Positions 29,701-47,946 of a DNA stretch of 64,000 nucleotides are shown one piece after another. The notes under the pieces were generated by a model. That model had not been told where the DNA came from. It did no database searches and was given only the letters and a program-made list of their open reading frames with translations. Numbering within the stretch: position 1 is the first letter of the stretch; each line of letters begins with the position of its first letter. The DNA is taken from the NCBI GenBank assembly GCA_017626555.1, contig JAGAIM010000104.1:62001-126000 (forward strand), in the 5' to 3' direction. The stretch is from Bacteroidales bacterium (lineage in GTDB: Bacteria > Bacteroidota > Bacteroidia > Bacteroidales > UBA932). The position numbers and the translations under genes are program-made.

Positions 29701-31333
29701 ATATATATCTGGAAATATCAATGCTGAAGGTCCGGTCAATATGCTGGAAATAAGCAGCAAGGGGACAAGGCTCGACGATGCAGTACTGAGAGTCGGCTTC
29801 ACAAATGTTCCATACTATGCAGACGGTCTCTTCCACCTCAACGACACCGGTGTATATTTTGATGAAATAAGCATCAGGGACAGATATAACGGCACCGGTA
29901 CCGTGGAAGGAAGCATAAACTGGTCGCAATTCAGGGATATAACATTCGACACAAGGATCAAAGTCAGAGACATCGAGGGCATTGACCTTGATGAGACTAT
30001 GAGCAGCGATTTCTACGGCAATGTATATGGCACTGGAAATGTATCCATCACAGGCCCGATCAATTCGCTGACACTTACGGTGGATGCAGTAACAGCCAAG
30101 ACCGGTCAGTTCCATATTCCTATGAGTGGAACTGCCACATCCAACGGAACGACAGATCTTCTCAAATTCAAAGAACCATCCAGAGAAGTTTATGTCGATC
30201 CATACGTAGCAATGATGGCACGTATGGACCGGGAGCACACAGGCAAAAGCGACCTGCTGGTGAAACTTAGGGTTGAGGCCTCTCCTAACGTGGAAGCATT
30301 TGTTGAAATAGACAAGGCCAGTGGAAATGTCCTCAGCGGTCAAGGCAACGGCTTGATCGAACTCGAAGTCGGAGAGGATCGTTTCAACATAAACGGAGAT
30401 TACACGCTTACTGGAGGAAAGTACAATTTTTCCGCACTTGGACTTGTGAACAGGGTATTTGACATACAGAACGGAAGTTCGATCATTTTCAGTGGAGATA
30501 TAATGCAGAGTACGCTTGACATCGAGGCAATCTACAATACAAAAGCATCACTATCCTCCCTTCTGTCAGACGAGTCGTCCGTAGCAAACAGGAGAAACGT
30601 GGAATGCGGAATAAGGATAACTGACAAACTCATCAACCCGAGACTGCAATTCTTCATTGAAGTTCCGGATCTGAACCCGATGATCAAATCCCGCGTTGAA
30701 AGCGCGTTGAGTACGGAAGACAAGGTGCAGAAGCAATTCCTCTCCCTCCTTCTCTCCAACAGTTTCCTCCCGGATGAACAGTCCGGCATTGTGAACAACT
30801 CATCATTGTTCTATTCGAACGTTACAGAGGCTATGGCCAACCAACTCAGCAATATACTGCACAAACTGGATATTCCGCTTGACCTAGGTCTCAAATACCA
30901 GCCAACCGAACAAGGCACGGACATATTTGATGTGGCTGTATCGACCCAGTTATTCAACAACAGAGTAGTAGTGAACGGCAATATAGGCAATAAACAATAT
31001 GAAGGTGGCGGCACCCAGAACGATGTGGTCGGAGACTTGGACATCGAGATCAAACTGAATCGTTCTGGAGCATTCCGCCTCAATATCTTCTCTCATTCGG
31101 CTGACCAATATTCCAACTATCTGGACAATTCACAGAGAAACGGTGTCGGTCTTACATACCAGACAGAGTTCAACAGTTTCAGGCAATTCTTCAGGAATGT
31201 ATTTGCCGGAAAGCAGAAGAGACAGGAGGCCAGACTTGCTGAACAGCAGGAAATGCTGAACGGAGAGAAAATTGAATTCAGTATTACTGGAGAAGACAAG
31301 AAAAAGACAGACAGGAAGAAAGATGACAGATAA
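26732..31333 (+). CDS. tamB: TamB-like translocation/assembly protein (DUF490)
   Basis: A 1533-residue envelope protein with one N-terminal membrane anchor (about 15-37) and then a very long beta-rich region of repeated AsmA/TamB-like segments. The C-terminal 450 residues form the TamB/DUF490 domain, including YTLTGGKYNFSALGLVNRVF and the closing LGLKYQPTEQGTDIFDVAVSTQLF. Such proteins span the periplasm and take part in outer-membrane assembly or lipid transport. The only usable start is TTG at 26732: an in-frame stop lies four codons upstream and no ATG is near the anchor. It heads an operon whose next gene overlaps by 11 bp. Confidence 0.9.
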   Translation: MDHQIATIIKKALKIFWLTVVAIAAVLLGTALIIQLPQTQTFIVGKVVDKLNERLDADISFEKIHFRPFKTLLLKNVTIIDRNPSFDASDSSKVRVDTFFRAEYITAEFTFEGLVRQQGIHLDEAVITNAQMNLVLEDKPDAGDGDTSTDNLSRIFRLKKPETPKRSEKEIFHIKDVQIRNMGFSMKNYGADKIPYHGGINWDDLDIKDINITANELQFKAGIMSGTAEHLSFREKSGYRTEFMSGSARVGRGKTIVEHLTLDDPWSELYMPLYMMSYENVKAFSDFISRVKIDGIIDDSTLDFTTLTYFAPQLKGNNLRARISGKVSGYVDDFDIMNLNIATYPGGFSGRVSGNMKGIPDIENTSIDAKVSGLNFTTEGLGRFMSGWMSEGEADFSRFAKGIIFMAEASAAGKLDNLDINAGINSFIGSIAADLNISGIISEKNPLSIRGKARTDDFDIGRAIGSDILGPLTMSTTLKASLDKPASVRIDSLKIDRLNFNRYDYQNIMAVGSLSGNMFNGTIIASDPNLNAILQGGFALSAKTNNARYQFYANVSYADLNALNIDKRGKSRLHFRTNANFRKTGNGNILGDIDVADLTVTNRDSTMNIGNMNLTSLSSDDVYKMRFRSQFADASFTGTAPVTKFAKDLISLTAKCEIPALFSNPGSSWDGNSYNVDICTHDSRTFLAFIMPGAYIHSGTQVHLGIDSNGNLSSSLNSQRIALKANNFQHLKAEFDNNESTFKGEISSSEAELAGFALNDNHLKFLADDNHIGLSYSYDNHSDMENRGELVINGSLSREDDILNVGITLLPSTLYFNSEEWNILPSNLRIRDKDIIIDSFEAVNGDQRLYAYGKTSQTRTDTLTFGLDRFNLAAIAPIVGQQLGLRGIATGNVEITSPVNSKGLLADILCDSTFIAGEPLGTVTIGSTWDEEFERFNISARNLYNGKKNLDAFARYTPKTRMLDADLILDSLNIKYAEPFLTDVFSEMSGYISGNINAEGPVNMLEISSKGTRLDDAVLRVGFTNVPYYADGLFHLNDTGVYFDEISIRDRYNGTGTVEGSINWSQFRDITFDTRIKVRDIEGIDLDETMSSDFYGNVYGTGNVSITGPINSLTLTVDAVTAKTGQFHIPMSGTATSNGTTDLLKFKEPSREVYVDPYVAMMARMDREHTGKSDLLVKLRVEASPNVEAFVEIDKASGNVLSGQGNGLIELEVGEDRFNINGDYTLTGGKYNFSALGLVNRVFDIQNGSSIIFSGDIMQSTLDIEAIYNTKASLSSLLSDESSVANRRNVECGIRITDKLINPRLQFFIEVPDLNPMIKSRVESALSTEDKVQKQFLSLLLSNSFLPDEQSGIVNNSSLFYSNVTEAMANQLSNILHKLDIPLDLGLKYQPTEQGTDIFDVAVSTQLFNNRVVVNGNIGNKQYEGGGTQNDVVGDLDIEIKLNRSGAFRLNIFSHSADQYSNYLDNSQRNGVGLTYQTEFNSFRQFFRNVFAGKQKRQEARLAEQQEMLNGEKIEFSITGEDKKKTDRKKDDR

Positions 31334-44454: not shown

Positions 44455-46089
44455 TCAGTCCAGGCGAAGAATGCTGTCGCAATAATCGATGATCTTTTCC
44501 CGGTGTGTTATGAAGATCATTGTATGATCCGGAAGTCTTGAAATCAGACGTTCCATAAGCAAGGTTTCAGTCCCGGCATCAAGAGCAGAACTGAACTCAT
44601 CAAGGAGAAGGATGCTGCCCGGACGAAGAAGAGCACGGGCTATGGCAATGCGCTGTGCCTGCCCCTCTGATAGTCCTGCCCCGGCCTCAAAGCATTGAGT
44701 ATCCAATCCTGACGGAAGATCCATAACAAAATCTGCAGCAGCGGTATGCAAGGCTTCAAGCAACTGAGACTCGGTCGCATCCGGATTACCCATAAGGAGA
44801 TTATCACGGACGGTACCGCTGAAAAGTGTGTTTCCCTGAGGCACATAGACAAGATTGGCACGGGTCGCAGGCGAAACCTCCTTTATAATTTCAGATGAAT
44901 ATACTTCTATCCTGCCGCTCTGGGGCTTGAGCAAAGACAGAAGAAGACGGATGAGCGTACTTTTCCCGACTCCTGTAGGACCTACGATTGCAGTGCGGCT
45001 GCCTGGCTTGAAGTCGTACGAAAAACCATCCAGAACTTTATCCCTGGAGTCTGGGTATGCAAAGGAAACATCGCGCAATCTGACTCCTACAACTCCATCA
45101 ATGAGCACAGGATCTGTCATTGGCTCACGTGGCAAAGCCTCCAGTTCCATAAGACGGTCAATTGATGCAGTAGAATGTATAAGAGCCGGCAACTGACTGC
45201 TCATCTCCACCAGAGGACGCTGAATCTGTCCGATGAGTTGAAGAAAGGCTGTCATCATTCCGTATGTGACTATGCCCTTGCTTATTCCGGTCACCCCCCA
45301 GATAAAGGCTATTACGTGCCCGGCCTGAAGAGCAAGTGACATAAAGCCACGGGATACGACACTGAACTTTGTCCTCCGGATTTCGTTTCCATAAAGATTA
45401 CCCTGAAGATCATCCAAGGTTGCGGAACTGGCATCCGTATATTCAAGTGACTGAAGCACAGAAAGATGCTGCAGACTTTCCTGCAAGTGTGACTGTACCC
45501 TTGAATCACTTTTACGGATATCCAAAGTAAGATTTCTGACCCTTGATGTTATATACTTTCCCAAAAGCATACCTGCTGGCACAACTACGATGATGACCAC
45601 AGCAAGCCTCGGATCAAGAATCAGAAGAAAAAGAAAAGCAGCGACAAACTGCAGGGCAGTGCCTAGAAGATTGGGAAGAGATACGGCAAAGGAAGAAGCG
45701 ACGACCCTCACATCTTCCTGCATACGGTTGAGTATGTCACCCGAATGATGACGTTTACCACCATCACTCTGAAGATGAAGAAGGATATTGAAAAGTCTTT
45801 TACGAAGCCGGTTCTTTATCTTGATTTCAGTTGTGGTCTGTAAATAGGAACGGACCGCATTGAGAAGTATCCTGAACAGTGAAATTCCTATCATCACAGC
45901 AGCCCATATCAGTATGGACTCACCTATTTCCTTTCCGGCAAATGCGTCAACAGCCAGATCCACCAATTTTTTGCTCACATAGACAAAGCCGATCGCGCAA
46001 CCGGCAATCATTATATGGCAAAACATAGTGACGGCAAGCCGGAAACGATACGGTCTTACTGCATTCAGAAACCATTTCAGATACTTCAT
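44455..46089 (-). CDS. ABC exporter, fused membrane and ATPase domains
   Basis: A 544-residue half-transporter. Six membrane helices fill residues 1-310. The ATPase domain has Walker A GPTGVGKSTLI, signature LSEGQAQRIAIARAL and Walker B LLLDEFSSALD. No C39 peptidase domain is fused. It most likely works as a homodimer exporting a peptide, lipid or small molecule. It starts three bases after the HPr-kinase-like gene, so the two are one operon and the cargo is probably linked to that locus. Confidence 0.93.
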   Translation of the reverse strand: MKYLKWFLNAVRPYRFRLAVTMFCHIMIAGCAIGFVYVSKKLVDLAVDAFAGKEIGESILIWAAVMIGISLFRILLNAVRSYLQTTTEIKIKNRLRKRLFNILLHLQSDGGKRHHSGDILNRMQEDVRVVASSFAVSLPNLLGTALQFVAAFLFLLILDPRLAVVIIVVVPAGMLLGKYITSRVRNLTLDIRKSDSRVQSHLQESLQHLSVLQSLEYTDASSATLDDLQGNLYGNEIRRTKFSVVSRGFMSLALQAGHVIAFIWGVTGISKGIVTYGMMTAFLQLIGQIQRPLVEMSSQLPALIHSTASIDRLMELEALPREPMTDPVLIDGVVGVRLRDVSFAYPDSRDKVLDGFSYDFKPGSRTAIVGPTGVGKSTLIRLLLSLLKPQSGRIEVYSSEIIKEVSPATRANLVYVPQGNTLFSGTVRDNLLMGNPDATESQLLEALHTAAADFVMDLPSGLDTQCFEAGAGLSEGQAQRIAIARALLRPGSILLLDEFSSALDAGTETLLMERLISRLPDHTMIFITHREKIIDYCDSILRLD

Positions 46090-46092
46090 AGG

Positions 46093-46977
46093 CTATTCGG
46101 TTACGGCCTTATGGCAAGTATATGCTGCATCGGCATCAGGAAGGCATTCAAGATGCCAGCAGGCCACTTGGGATATTACCTTCTCTACTGTTTTATGCAA
46201 AGCGTCTGTAGAAGCCCTGTCCCAACGCATACAAGAGCACGCCGGCATCAATGATGCGTATGCCTGCAGAAGGACATTGCGGCTTATTTTATTATACGGA
46301 GCCTGACTCAGACGCACTATTGCTTTCAAAGGTACGGAATCATTCTTATAGCAATGTGTCTTACCGCTCCAAGGCGTACCATATACCACAGCCTTTCCTT
46401 CCTTCAGACGAATGACCGGATTATCATCATTCAATAGTTCCGCATCATCAATATTGTTGAGCCACAGACGGCTATGAGTACTCTTTCCGGTTCCGCTCCT
46501 GCCCAGGAACATATATCCGCCTCCATTATGCTTTATGACTGACGCGTGCACCATAAGCGTATCGTATGGGCTGGTACAGAAGGTATAAAGTAGCATCATA
46601 GCATTGCTCAAGGAGAATTCCGTCAGGCGTTTAGCGCGCGATAGGGGCACATAGACTACATTATGCCTGAAATCGTCCGAAGGGATAAGAATACAGTCCG
46701 GATGTGCCTTTGTGTATGAGAATCCGAAATTGAATTTTCCTTCATTGTCAAAAATCCAGAAATAAGGAGCCTCATCATTAAGGCATTCGCGCACATCACC
46801 AGGATCAGTACTCTTCAAATCGTCAGAATACCTGACAGTCAAAGTGAATATCGGCTCTGCGTCACTCGCTGCAGCAAACGGCTGATATGGGCCAAGGTAC
46901 TCTTCGGCATTGACATTTTCCGGCATTATCACCTCAAAAAGATGACCGGCAACTTCATATTTGTATGATTTTTCCAT
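46093..46977 (-). CDS. HPr-kinase-like (PEPCK-fold) protein
   Basis: A 294-residue protein. The N-terminal 140 residues are beta-rich and of unknown function. From residue 145 a kinase-like domain has the P-loop GRSGTGKST (159-167), the acidic LLNDDNPVIR and the conserved YGTPWSGKTH. These match the HPr kinase/phosphorylase C-terminal fold, and homologues of this sort appear in lasso-peptide and other PqqD-associated clusters, where some phosphorylate the peptide. The usual HPr-recognition tail is not evident. Its -7 box ends just eight bases before the ATG. Confidence 0.75.
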   Translation of the reverse strand: MEKSYKYEVAGHLFEVIMPENVNAEEYLGPYQPFAAASDAEPIFTLTVRYSDDLKSTDPGDVRECLNDEAPYFWIFDNEGKFNFGFSYTKAHPDCILIPSDDFRHNVVYVPLSRAKRLTEFSLSNAMMLLYTFCTSPYDTLMVHASVIKHNGGGYMFLGRSGTGKSTHSRLWLNNIDDAELLNDDNPVIRLKEGKAVVYGTPWSGKTHCYKNDSVPLKAIVRLSQAPYNKISRNVLLQAYASLMPACSCMRWDRASTDALHKTVEKVISQVACWHLECLPDADAAYTCHKAVTE

Positions 46978-46984
46978 AATTTTT

Positions 46985-46992
46985 CAAAGATA
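46985..46992 (-). promoter_or_regulatory. -7 box of the HPr-kinase-like/ABC operon
   Basis: TATCTTTG on the minus strand ends eight bases before the ATG at 46977. Calibrated on the SRP RNA promoter, the transcript would have a leader of only one or two bases. Confidence 0.5.
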
Positions 46993-47006
46993 GTGATTTT
47001 TATCCG

Positions 47007-47014
47007 TATTTTTG
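47007..47014 (+). promoter_or_regulatory. -7 box of the S26-type peptidase gene
   Basis: TATTTTTG ends seven bases before the ATG at 47021 and points away from the HPr-kinase-like promoter 14 bp to its left. Confidence 0.5.
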
Positions 47015-47020
47015 CAGTAT

Positions 47021-47479
47021 ATGACAACAATAGTAAAAGATAAGGCATTGATGATGGAGGAGATCAGGACATTGATCTCCGAAGGGCATACTGTATCGCT
47101 GACAGTGAAAGGCAATAGTATGAATCCGTTTCTCGTGAGTATGAGGGATCAGATGACATTGGGTCCCTGGAAAAAAGAAGACATACGCAAAGGATGCGTG
47201 GCACTTGTAAAGGACATCAAAGGCAACTATCTGATCCACAGGATTATACACACCGACGCAACGACAGTCACATTGATAGGAGACGGGAATATAGGCCTGC
47301 AGGAAACTGCCAGGTACGAAGACATCATCGGTATTATGTACAACATAACACGCAAAGGTAAGGTATGGACATCAGAAAGCCGGATCTGGAAACTATACTC
47401 CTGCATCTGGATGTTCCTCCTCCCCGTGCGCCGATGGCCTCTCGGAGCCTGGAGAAGAATTTTCCTGAAGAGCCGCTAA
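47021..47479 (+). CDS. S24/S26-type signal-peptidase-like protein (Ser/His form)
   Basis: A 152-residue protein with the S26 serine box KGNSMNPFLV, a second conserved segment GCVALVKDIKGNYLIHRI and IGDGN. In classical bacterial signal peptidase I the second catalytic residue is Lys; here the HRI position is His, as in the SipW/ER-type enzymes. No N-terminal anchor is seen; a hydrophobic stretch near the C-terminus (YSCIWMFLLPV) may attach it to the membrane. Context suggests it trims a peptide made by this locus. The true start may instead be ATG 47051 or 47054, which would give a normal leader. Confidence 0.78.
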   Translation: MTTIVKDKALMMEEIRTLISEGHTVSLTVKGNSMNPFLVSMRDQMTLGPWKKEDIRKGCVALVKDIKGNYLIHRIIHTDATTVTLIGDGNIGLQETARYEDIIGIMYNITRKGKVWTSESRIWKLYSCIWMFLLPVRRWPLGAWRRIFLKSR

Positions 47480-47593
47480 TTTTTTTCTGTAGGCATCCAT
47501 ACGCTTTTTCCAGGCAATCTGTCTGGCTTTCTGCTCCCTGGCTTTGCGCGCCTGAAGTTCCTCATATTTCTTCTCGAGATAGTTGTCTGCCAT
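47393..47593 (-). CDS. Small charged coiled-coil protein overlapping the peptidase gene antisense
   Basis: A 66-residue protein (MADNYLEKKYEELQARKAREQ at the start) rich in Lys, Arg, Glu and Ala, predicted as one long helix to about residue 43, then a Pro/Ser/Glu tail. The first 38 codons lie in otherwise empty DNA; the tail is antisense to the end of the S26-type gene. A -7 box stands 20 bp before the ATG. I think a small protein is made, but I cannot assign a function and it does not resemble a typical precursor with a leader and core. Confidence 0.55.
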   Translation of the reverse strand: MADNYLEKKYEELQARKAREQKARQIAWKKRMDAYRKKLAALQENSSPGSERPSAHGEEEHPDAGV

Positions 47594-47613
47594 AATTACA
47601 TTCTATGATTGTG

Positions 47614-47621
47614 CAAATATA
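47614..47621 (-). promoter_or_regulatory. -7 box of the small coiled-coil gene
   Basis: TATATTTG on the minus strand, 20 bp before the ATG at 47593. Confidence 0.45.
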
Positions 47622-47629
47622 ACAATCTG

Positions 47630-47661
47630 TTTGGTTGAAAAGGAGTTTTTTGATACTTTTG
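47630..47661 (+). promoter_or_regulatory. Promoter of the PqqD-like gene
   Basis: TTTG (47630-47633), 20 bp, TACTTTTG (47654-47661): full consensus, 18 bp before the ATG at 47680. Confidence 0.7.
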
Positions 47662-47679
47662 CAGAAAATCAGCAAAAAG

Positions 47680-47946
47680 ATGAAAATCAAGAAAGGATTC
47701 GTACTCCGCGAAATGTGTGGAGAAAACATAGTCGCAGCAGAAGGGCTCGAGAACATTAATTTCAACAAACTGATCTCACTCAACGAGAGTGCGGCATATC
47801 TCTGGAAGGAACTTGAAAACAAGGAATTCACTGTCGAAGATATGGCAGAGTCCCTTATCAGCCGTTACGGCATCGACAAGGAACTCGCTTTAAAGGATTC
47901 TGCAAATCTTTGCGACGCCTGGATCAAGGCCGGAATCGCTGAATAA
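47680..47946 (+). CDS. PqqD-like (RRE-fold) protein
   Basis: An 88-residue PqqD-family protein: MKIKKGFVLREMCGENIVAAEG, then FNKLISLNESAAYLWKELENKEFTVEDMAESL and a helical end. The pattern of an N-terminal beta-hairpin, the LNESAAYLW core and three helices is the RiPP-recognition-element fold, which binds the leader of a precursor peptide and hands it to a modifying enzyme. The start at 47680 fits the promoter; an in-frame start at 47635 would include the -7 box. It ends two bases before the convergent oxidoreductase gene. Confidence 0.88.
   Translation: MKIKKGFVLREMCGENIVAAEGLENINFNKLISLNESAAYLWKELENKEFTVEDMAESLISRYGIDKELALKDSANLCDAWIKAGIAE

Follow-up and report, generated by a model that had tools for sequence, protein, structure and literature searches.

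A four-gene locus in a Bacteroidales genome as the probable maturation and export hub of a peptide system resembling the linear polyphosphorylated peptides

The DNA analysed here, referred to as the window, is a 64 kb stretch (64,000 nucleotides) of a Bacteroidales genome, G000, and its positions 44455–47946 hold four genes, for an ABC exporter, an HPr-kinase-like (HprK-like) kinase, a Sec11-type S26 peptidase and a PqqD-like protein. We conclude that this locus is very likely to be the maturation and export hub of a ribosomally synthesised and post-translationally modified peptide (RiPP) system akin to the linear polyphosphorylated peptides (LPP) of the P. alginolyticus lpp cluster (Popov et al. 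2026, PMC13381572), with linear products, no macrocyclase at the locus and precursors encoded in trans. As described there, the LPP enzyme set comprises a SipW/SpI-like peptidase, a discrete RiPP recognition element (RRE), an HprK-like kinase, a nucleotidyltransferase (NTP transferase) and an MsbA-like exporter. The RRE recognises a YxxP motif through its Tyr and Pro and presents the leader to the peptidase, the kinase puts several phosphates on Ser3 of the core, and the cut falls after the residues FET, two residues before the phosphoserine (PMC13381572). The authors state that LPP are restricted to Bacillota, describe 1–3 precursors per cluster and report no known role for the products (PMC13381572).

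In relatives of G000, short open reading frames (ORFs) beside the four-gene cassette carry a common leader, YxxPxxEVxExxxEQGFAxS. The candidate precursors are ~35–65 residues long, with a leader that may be written YExPxxEVxExxxExGFAxS and a short acidic core. They were counted with two hidden Markov models (HMMs): A5, a 27-position leader profile seeded from peptides near cassettes, two of them from outside the taxonomic family of G000 (G499 and G150), and A6, built from A5 matches in members of the family only, using 39 of 48 leader segments. A5 finds 18 copies in G000, of which 13 have E≤0.01; the best match is at C43:31205. Contig C43 has no leader-profile match other than this one (31202–31279), which lies ~31 kb before the start of the window, within which the leader-profile search found no precursor. 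With A6, G000 yields 19 copies at E≤0.1 and 17 at the stricter level of E≤0.01. The total for this genome is 18 intact-looking copies and one broken copy (L218, on contig C216), which is without an intact start and YxxP and still precedes a lipoprotein ORF; the extra copy found by A6 alone (C201:37620) is intact and precedes a 917-residue lipoprotein-type ORF. Among 48 distinct leaders, YxxP is present in every one, a feature for which the profile selects, and Glu occupies position +13 in 40; Ser stands at Tyr+19 or Tyr+20 in 46 of the 47 peptides that are long enough. The segment past Tyr+20 consists of 30% Asp or Glu and 2% Lys or Arg, and Trp occurs within the last three residues of 27 of the 48 peptides. 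No Pfam or NCBIfam model matched any of the 16 precursors tested at E≤1. A regular-expression hunt for leader-like ORFs gave 172 matches, mostly evident chance, and the counts reported here use the HMM route only.

The distribution of these peptides follows that of the cassette. The HprK-like kinase was found in 59 of the 149 genomes searched from the same family as G000, and A5 (E≤1e-3) detects a peptide in 40 of these 59 genomes as against 3 of the 90 without the kinase; omitting the 14 kinase-bearing genomes that gave seeds leaves 26/45 versus 3/90 (p 1e-12). With A6 at E≤1e-3, the figures are 47/59 and 5/90 (p 1e-21). Within the 95 genomes that have Mfa_like proteins, A6 peptides occur in 41 of 52 genomes with the kinase and 5 of 43 without it (p 2.7e-11), so that lipoproteins alone do not explain the peptides. 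Among 395 genomes from across the phylum, only G000, G499, G150 and G507 have an A6 match at E≤1e-3, and strong kinase matches (E≤1e-76) are confined to these four and G542. Outside the family, the A6 peptide is accordingly present in 3 of 4 strong-kinase genomes versus 0 of 390 others; in nine more genomes of the phylum the kinase match is weak (~1e-10 to 1e-23), and none of these yields a peptide at E≤1e-3.

Some of the peptide genes also lie close to the cassette. Among the A5 matches listed, 14 of the 40 genomes with both peptide and kinase have a peptide ≤5 kb from HprK, but 9 of the 14 had themselves supplied seeds found near cassettes, which makes the count partly circular. For the 26 non-seed genomes, the corresponding number is 5, against 0.73 expected (p 0.001); among the five is G058, whose peptide is also that of the seed genome G139. 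Peptide genes stand inside or adjoin the cassette in G089, G037, G148 and G023. The locus L172 of G089 is a same-strand run of peptide, lipoprotein, NTP_transf_5, ABC, HprK, S26 and PqqD genes, and in a near relative, L039, a peptide–lipoprotein pair adjoins PqqD.

The peptide genes are paired with genes for lipoproteins. In G000, 17 intact peptide ORFs found by A5 have a lipoprotein-type ORF directly downstream, at spacings that range from an overlap to 74 bp; one of these lipoprotein-type ORFs is cut by a contig end. When all peptides with a following ORF in view are taken together, from G000 and from other genomes, a looser lipoprotein rule is passed by 45 of 45 following genes, compared with 155 of 818 background ORFs, and a fimbrillin-like TKT..W motif, also under the looser rule, is found in 41/45 versus 27/818; four further peptides run off the fetched stretch and are not in the 45. 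The looser rule was adopted because a first, stricter regular expression, by which 31 of 44 downstream genes had a lipobox and 28 of 44 the fimbrillin motif, proved too narrow on inspection (e.g. FMSC, SFSC). Of 10 downstream proteins compared with Mfa_like_1, three match, one with 26.8 bits against a cut-off of 27, and it is on account of these matches and the TKT..W motif that we use the label fimbrillin-like. Some of the downstream lipoproteins carry C-terminal LRR or Fib_succ_major domains. The pairing provides a genetic clue to the function of the peptides, suggesting a role at the cell surface, and is to our mind the most interesting lead. At L278 (G000:C201:52500–62000), two peptide–lipoprotein pairs lie close by, with a third lipoprotein-type ORF and, judged by eye, a nuclease-like ORF downstream; the partner lipoproteins there vary widely in length and C-terminal domains.

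The PqqD-like protein matches PF05402 at 4.9e-12, above the cut-off, and is the only match of its family profile in G000 at E≤0.001. A profile search with this protein matched the TfuB1 RRE at 4.6e-7. Its AlphaFold (AF2) model has a mean predicted local distance difference test score (pLDDT) of 87.9, and Foldseek comparison of the model returns lasso RRE–leader complexes first (TbiB1, 5v1u/5v1v, then TfuB1, 6jx3), followed by PqqD (5sxy). The residues N33, Y60 and D70 with which LppB holds YxxP align with N35, Y63 and D73 here, in an alignment that uses an inferred chain offset of 18, which makes the residue names of PMC13381572 fit. Across 24 PqqD sequences, N35 and D73 do not vary, and Y63 is conserved in at least 90%. 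We take the protein, on its sequence, to be a predicted discrete RRE with a Tyr/Pro pocket in which the hydrogen-bonding residues are retained and other pocket residues are partly changed.

The remaining enzymes are more divergent from curated families. The HprK-like kinase matches such models weakly by sequence (best ScmC, 1.8e-6, under the cut-off); its AF2 model (pLDDT 90.5) gives Foldseek matches to PEPCK and HPr kinase/phosphatase folds, and G159, the SGTGKST segment (161–167) and D184–D185 are invariant in 18 sequences. Matches of the S26 protein are likewise weak, to Peptidase_S24 (2.3e-4) and archaeal signal peptidase I (5.9e-4), both under cut-off, and in a profile search to SEC11C (0.0037) and SEC11A (0.0082); S33, M34, H73, R74, G87, D88 and E95 are invariant in 16 sequences. 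The exporter matches ABC_membrane at 2.4e-34 and ABC_tran at 3e-27 and scores as a type I, MsbA-like half transporter, and a C39 peptidase domain is absent from its listed Pfam matches. No match to the lasso B2 protease family PF13471 was found in G000, an assembly missing ~5%, and PF13471 is over its cut-off in one of the 149 family genomes (G089, on a contig other than that of the cassette), with only sub-threshold partial matches in 27 more genomes. At L171 (G089:C1:2000–21900), a PF13471 gene lies near PqqD-, HprK- and NTP_transf_5-type genes. An Asn-synthetase-like cyclase was not seen at the locus by eye; PF00733 was not searched genome-wide.

Conservation of the cassette was assessed in a table of 56 loci, drawn from 40 of the 59 HprK-positive family genomes, including G000, and from 16 database loci; the two sets may share strains. 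The database loci are metagenome-assembled genomes labelled Bacteroidales, apart from one Bacteroidia and one Alistipes, and ruminant guts are named in several of their titles; the short loci L001–L030 were excluded, longer versions being used for 29. HprK is present in 56 of these loci, S26 in 51, ABC in 47 and PqqD in 46. Some of the missing genes reflect contig ends, and several near relatives have PqqD a few kilobases away or off the stretch. Since the genes recur together in these loci, the four-gene grouping is beyond chance. Other common orders are HprK–S26–PqqD–(NTP5)–ABC and PqqD–(NTP5)–ABC–HprK–S26, where NTP5 is the NTP_transf_5 gene, and HprK and S26 also occur fused in frame as a single ORF (G003; L076 8937–10448, plus strand, 503 residues). 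In two genomes of one genus, an HprK-like gene follows in frame a gene that by eye is IspG/GcpE-like, giving one ORF of 725–728 residues (Table 1).

A fifth gene accompanies the cassette. The NTP_transf_5 nucleotidyltransferase (PF14907) occurs in 53 of the 149 family genomes, and 51 of the 53 have HprK (Fisher p ~1e-28). It is adjacent to the cassette in relatives such as L050, L066, L075 and L082; the sole copy found in G000 is on contig C68, outside the window, where it adjoins genes named by eye as aminotransferase-like and sugar-phosphate nucleotidyltransferase-like. Unlinked copies are seen in loci which by eye are of capsule or exopolysaccharide type, with Wza/Wzc-like and nucleotide-sugar genes (Table 1). 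At one of these, L119, a second PqqD-like gene is located directly upstream of NTP_transf_5. In L282 (6515–7656; G051:C21), also a capsule-type locus, NTP_transf_5 is split into two frames; G051 is kinase-less and has a leader peptide.

The parallels with the LPP enzymes, together with the Ser at Tyr+19/+20, lead us to propose a scheme of binding, phosphorylation, elaboration, cutting and export. It takes the gene set, leader family, lipoprotein pairing, co-occurrence and RRE groove residues as read from sequences and statistics, and the kinase and RRE folds as given by models; leader binding, the sites at which kinase and peptidase act, the sequence of the reactions and the end product follow the LPP analogy, and the role is inferred. 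The PqqD-like RRE would bind the YxxP of the precursor leaders, and the HprK-like kinase would phosphorylate the Ser that is conserved where the core begins, which the NTP_transf_5 enzyme encoded on contig C68 might modify further. The S26 peptidase would remove the leader just before this Ser, and the MsbA-like ABC protein would export the product. Conceivably, the conserved Ser is the residue at the cut rather than the one phosphorylated. The ~18 precursors would be supplied in trans, each from a two-gene unit in which the peptide gene comes first and the gene for a fimbrillin-like lipoprotein second. More tentatively, and with the balance of probability somewhat against it, one hub could serve phosphopeptides from the whole genome, each a dedicated partner of the lipoprotein downstream (for instance a modified donor strand, cap or ligand by which this surface protein is switched or decorated), in which case the system would act in surface-protein assembly and not as an antibiotic.

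The first-pass annotation, made from the window alone, had proposed that these genes recognise, modify, cut and export a peptide, and the LPP-like enzyme set and YxxP leader family support that proposal at the level of sequence. It had left a choice between a precursor situated elsewhere and a system of a kind different from lasso peptides. Both now appear likely, with a candidate family scattered through the genome, no B2 protease found in G000 and an enzyme set equal to that of LPP. The comparisons it had suggested came out in favour of the idea, in that the genes co-occur beyond chance in the neighbourhoods of relatives, the key groove residues of PqqD are kept and a conserved short peptide family exists. 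The nucleotidyltransferase partner, the precursors themselves and the lipoprotein link go beyond that annotation.

Its description of the locus as four genes in 3.5 kb, arranged as divergent units plus a PqqD gene with its own promoter, also holds, all elements having been located. The ABC exporter and HprK-like kinase genes form one leftward unit, and the S26 gene diverges from it at a distance of 43 bp from HprK. Upstream of PqqD is a full match to TTTG-N-TANNTTTG, which we take to be the Bacteroidota-type promoter consensus; there are 7 such matches in the 64 kb versus 1.42 expected. The ORF listed from 47635 for PqqD begins at a TTG inside this promoter. The short TANNTTTG box alone is not above chance, with 13 found against 10.2 expected in L047. 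Between S26 and PqqD, the only extra conserved short ORF seen is P0005. It was considered as a precursor and rejected: 9 of the 18 genomes with P0005 are absent from the HprK list, e.g. in genus g6, and its occurrence in genomes without the cassette indicates a more general short protein, probably unrelated.

Table 1. Coordinates of features at the locus (window positions) and of related loci in other genomes
Feature	Position	Strand	Details
ABC exporter, MsbA-type half transporter	46089-44455	-	544 aa; Pfam profile matches
HprK-like kinase	46977-46093	-	294 aa; invariant motifs, predicted fold
S26-type peptidase	47021-47479	+	152 aa; alternative TTG start at 47012
PqqD-like discrete RRE (predicted)	47680-47946	+	88 aa; PF05402 match, predicted fold
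Bacteroidota-type promoter of PqqD gene, TTTG..TACTTTTG	47630-47661	+	pattern match
-7-type box before S26 gene, TATTTTTG	47007-47014	+	converted from L047 10508-10515
-7-type box before HprK-ABC unit, TATCTTTG	46992-46985	-	converted from L047 10486-10493
Conserved ORF P0005 (MADNYLEKKYEE...)	47593-47393	-	66 aa; TATATTTG box upstream; overlaps S26 3' end
IspG/GcpE-like + HprK-like joined ORF	L049 9490-11667; L055 8156-10342	-; +	
Unlinked NTP_transf_5 loci of capsule type	L119, L120, L122-L125, L128, L129, L132, L135		

Several observations weigh against the assignment to an LPP-like peptide system. Stratified by genus, the association of peptide and kinase is much weaker than overall (Cochran–Mantel–Haenszel p 0.003, with 132 of 149 genus labels used), and the seeds came from peptides near cassettes, so that the in-family tests are not fully independent. 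With A6, 12 of the 59 HprK-positive genomes are without a peptide at E≤1e-3, and G542 has the RRE, S26 and kinase yet no peptide match. Conversely, five genomes lacking the kinase have a peptide (G021, G033, G051, G066 and G128), the PqqD family profile being unmatched in all five. LppB is matched by the PqqD profile at E 0.38 only, and other pocket residues of the RRE differ from those of LppB (e.g. V35→S37, V63→D66, F74→L77). The third catalytic residue of the S26 peptidase is a further such point, as the invariant E95 would lie roughly at the expected Asp position. Finally, the LPP leader reads YxxPxVLxHQxIxFETxxS, whereas the leader family described here, YExPxxEVxExxxExGFAxS, is without HQ and FET.

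Other explanations of the locus may be set against these results. Lasso peptides too can be accompanied by a YxxP leader, a discrete RRE, an HprK-like kinase, a nucleotidyltransferase and an ABC exporter (PMC7533575, PMC13381572), and the locus might therefore belong to a lasso system whose cyclase and B2 protease are encoded elsewhere in the genome. This is highly improbable given that PF13471 is unmatched in the assembly of G000 and over its cut-off in a single family genome, and that the cassette carries an S26 peptidase of its own. The location of many unlinked NTP_transf_5 copies in capsule-type loci would fit a cassette that modifies an exopolysaccharide or a surface-polysaccharide carrier, the leader peptides being unrelated to it. 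By eye, moreover, the cassette stands beside Wza/Wzc-like genes in G499, in G507 and at one of the two G150 loci, and LPP and paeninodin clusters are said often to sit in capsule loci (PMC13381572). We nevertheless consider a polysaccharide role very unlikely, because the RRE retains the YxxP-binding residues, one of the enzymes resembles a leader peptidase and the peptides co-occur with the cassette.

The presence of a lipoprotein gene downstream of all 45 peptides whose following gene is in view raises a different possibility, that the short ORFs act as leaders or attenuators of lipoprotein operons, or encode lipoprotein-specific chaperone peptides, and that shared ancestry accounts for their co-occurrence with the cassette; the weaker association within genera points the same way. 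Against it, 38 of the 43 genomes that have Mfa_like proteins and no cassette are also without the peptides, three relatives at order or class level have both cassette and peptides, the four genomes named above carry peptide genes within the cassette or adjoining it, and the leader bears the RRE motif. This explanation is thus very improbable, and an LPP-like peptide system remains our preferred interpretation.

Among known systems, SynChlorMet (TIGR04248/TIGR04249) shares the pairing of a PqqD with an HprK-like protein and provides the best NCBIfam matches of both proteins. It was rejected since the scores are far under the cut-offs, at 18.1 of 100 and 27.5 of 125 bits. The SynChlorMet cassette has radical SAM enzymes; no ORF of ≥200 residues with the radical-SAM-type motif CxxxCxxC was found in 34–58 kb of the window. 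The HprK-related kinase A system (TIGR04352) was likewise rejected, at 19.6 bits versus a cut-off of 200. With the paeninodin/pseudomycoidin type of lasso cluster (PMC7533575, PMC13381572), the locus has in common an RRE, an HprK-like kinase, a nucleotidyltransferase, an ABC exporter and a [Y/W]xxP leader; it differs in its S26 peptidase, in the lack of a B2 match in G000 and in having no cyclase at the locus. A search limited to a collection of open-access articles listed no other report of such a PqqD/RRE–HprK–signal peptidase–fimbrillin system in Bacteroidetes; in the accessible part of a survey of Bacteroidales RiPPs (PMC10352776), PqqD appears only within a cited title. The strings 'Bacteroid', 'lipoprotein' and 'fimbri' are absent from the text of PMC13381572.

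The closest likeness is to LPP. All five enzymes of that set (peptidase, RRE, kinase, NTP transferase and exporter) have counterparts in G000, with no cyclase in the set, and the two systems are alike in the YxxP leader, the conserved Ser soon after it, the variable core and the links with capsule loci. They differ in the position of the Ser, which is at Tyr+18 in LPP and at Tyr+19/+20 here, and in the placing of the precursors, which in LPP are in the cluster, whereas here ~18 are scattered, and only certain relatives have any within the cluster or next to it. LPP belong to Bacillota; here the host is of Bacteroidota, each precursor is paired with a fimbrillin-like lipoprotein and the NTP transferase is unlinked in G000. 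As the gene set and YxxP motif of LPP are found, and the full leader consensus and an in-cluster precursor are not, we call this an LPP-like variant. To judge from its genes, the system probably works as LPP do, in a Bacteroidota form with dispersed, lipoprotein-paired precursors. LPP-type machinery in Bacteroidales would extend a class described in 2026 as confined to Bacillota and would illustrate how one RRE hub, acting in trans, could supply many loci. Genome mining that expects precursors next to the enzymes, where those of LPP are found, would overlook most of this class.

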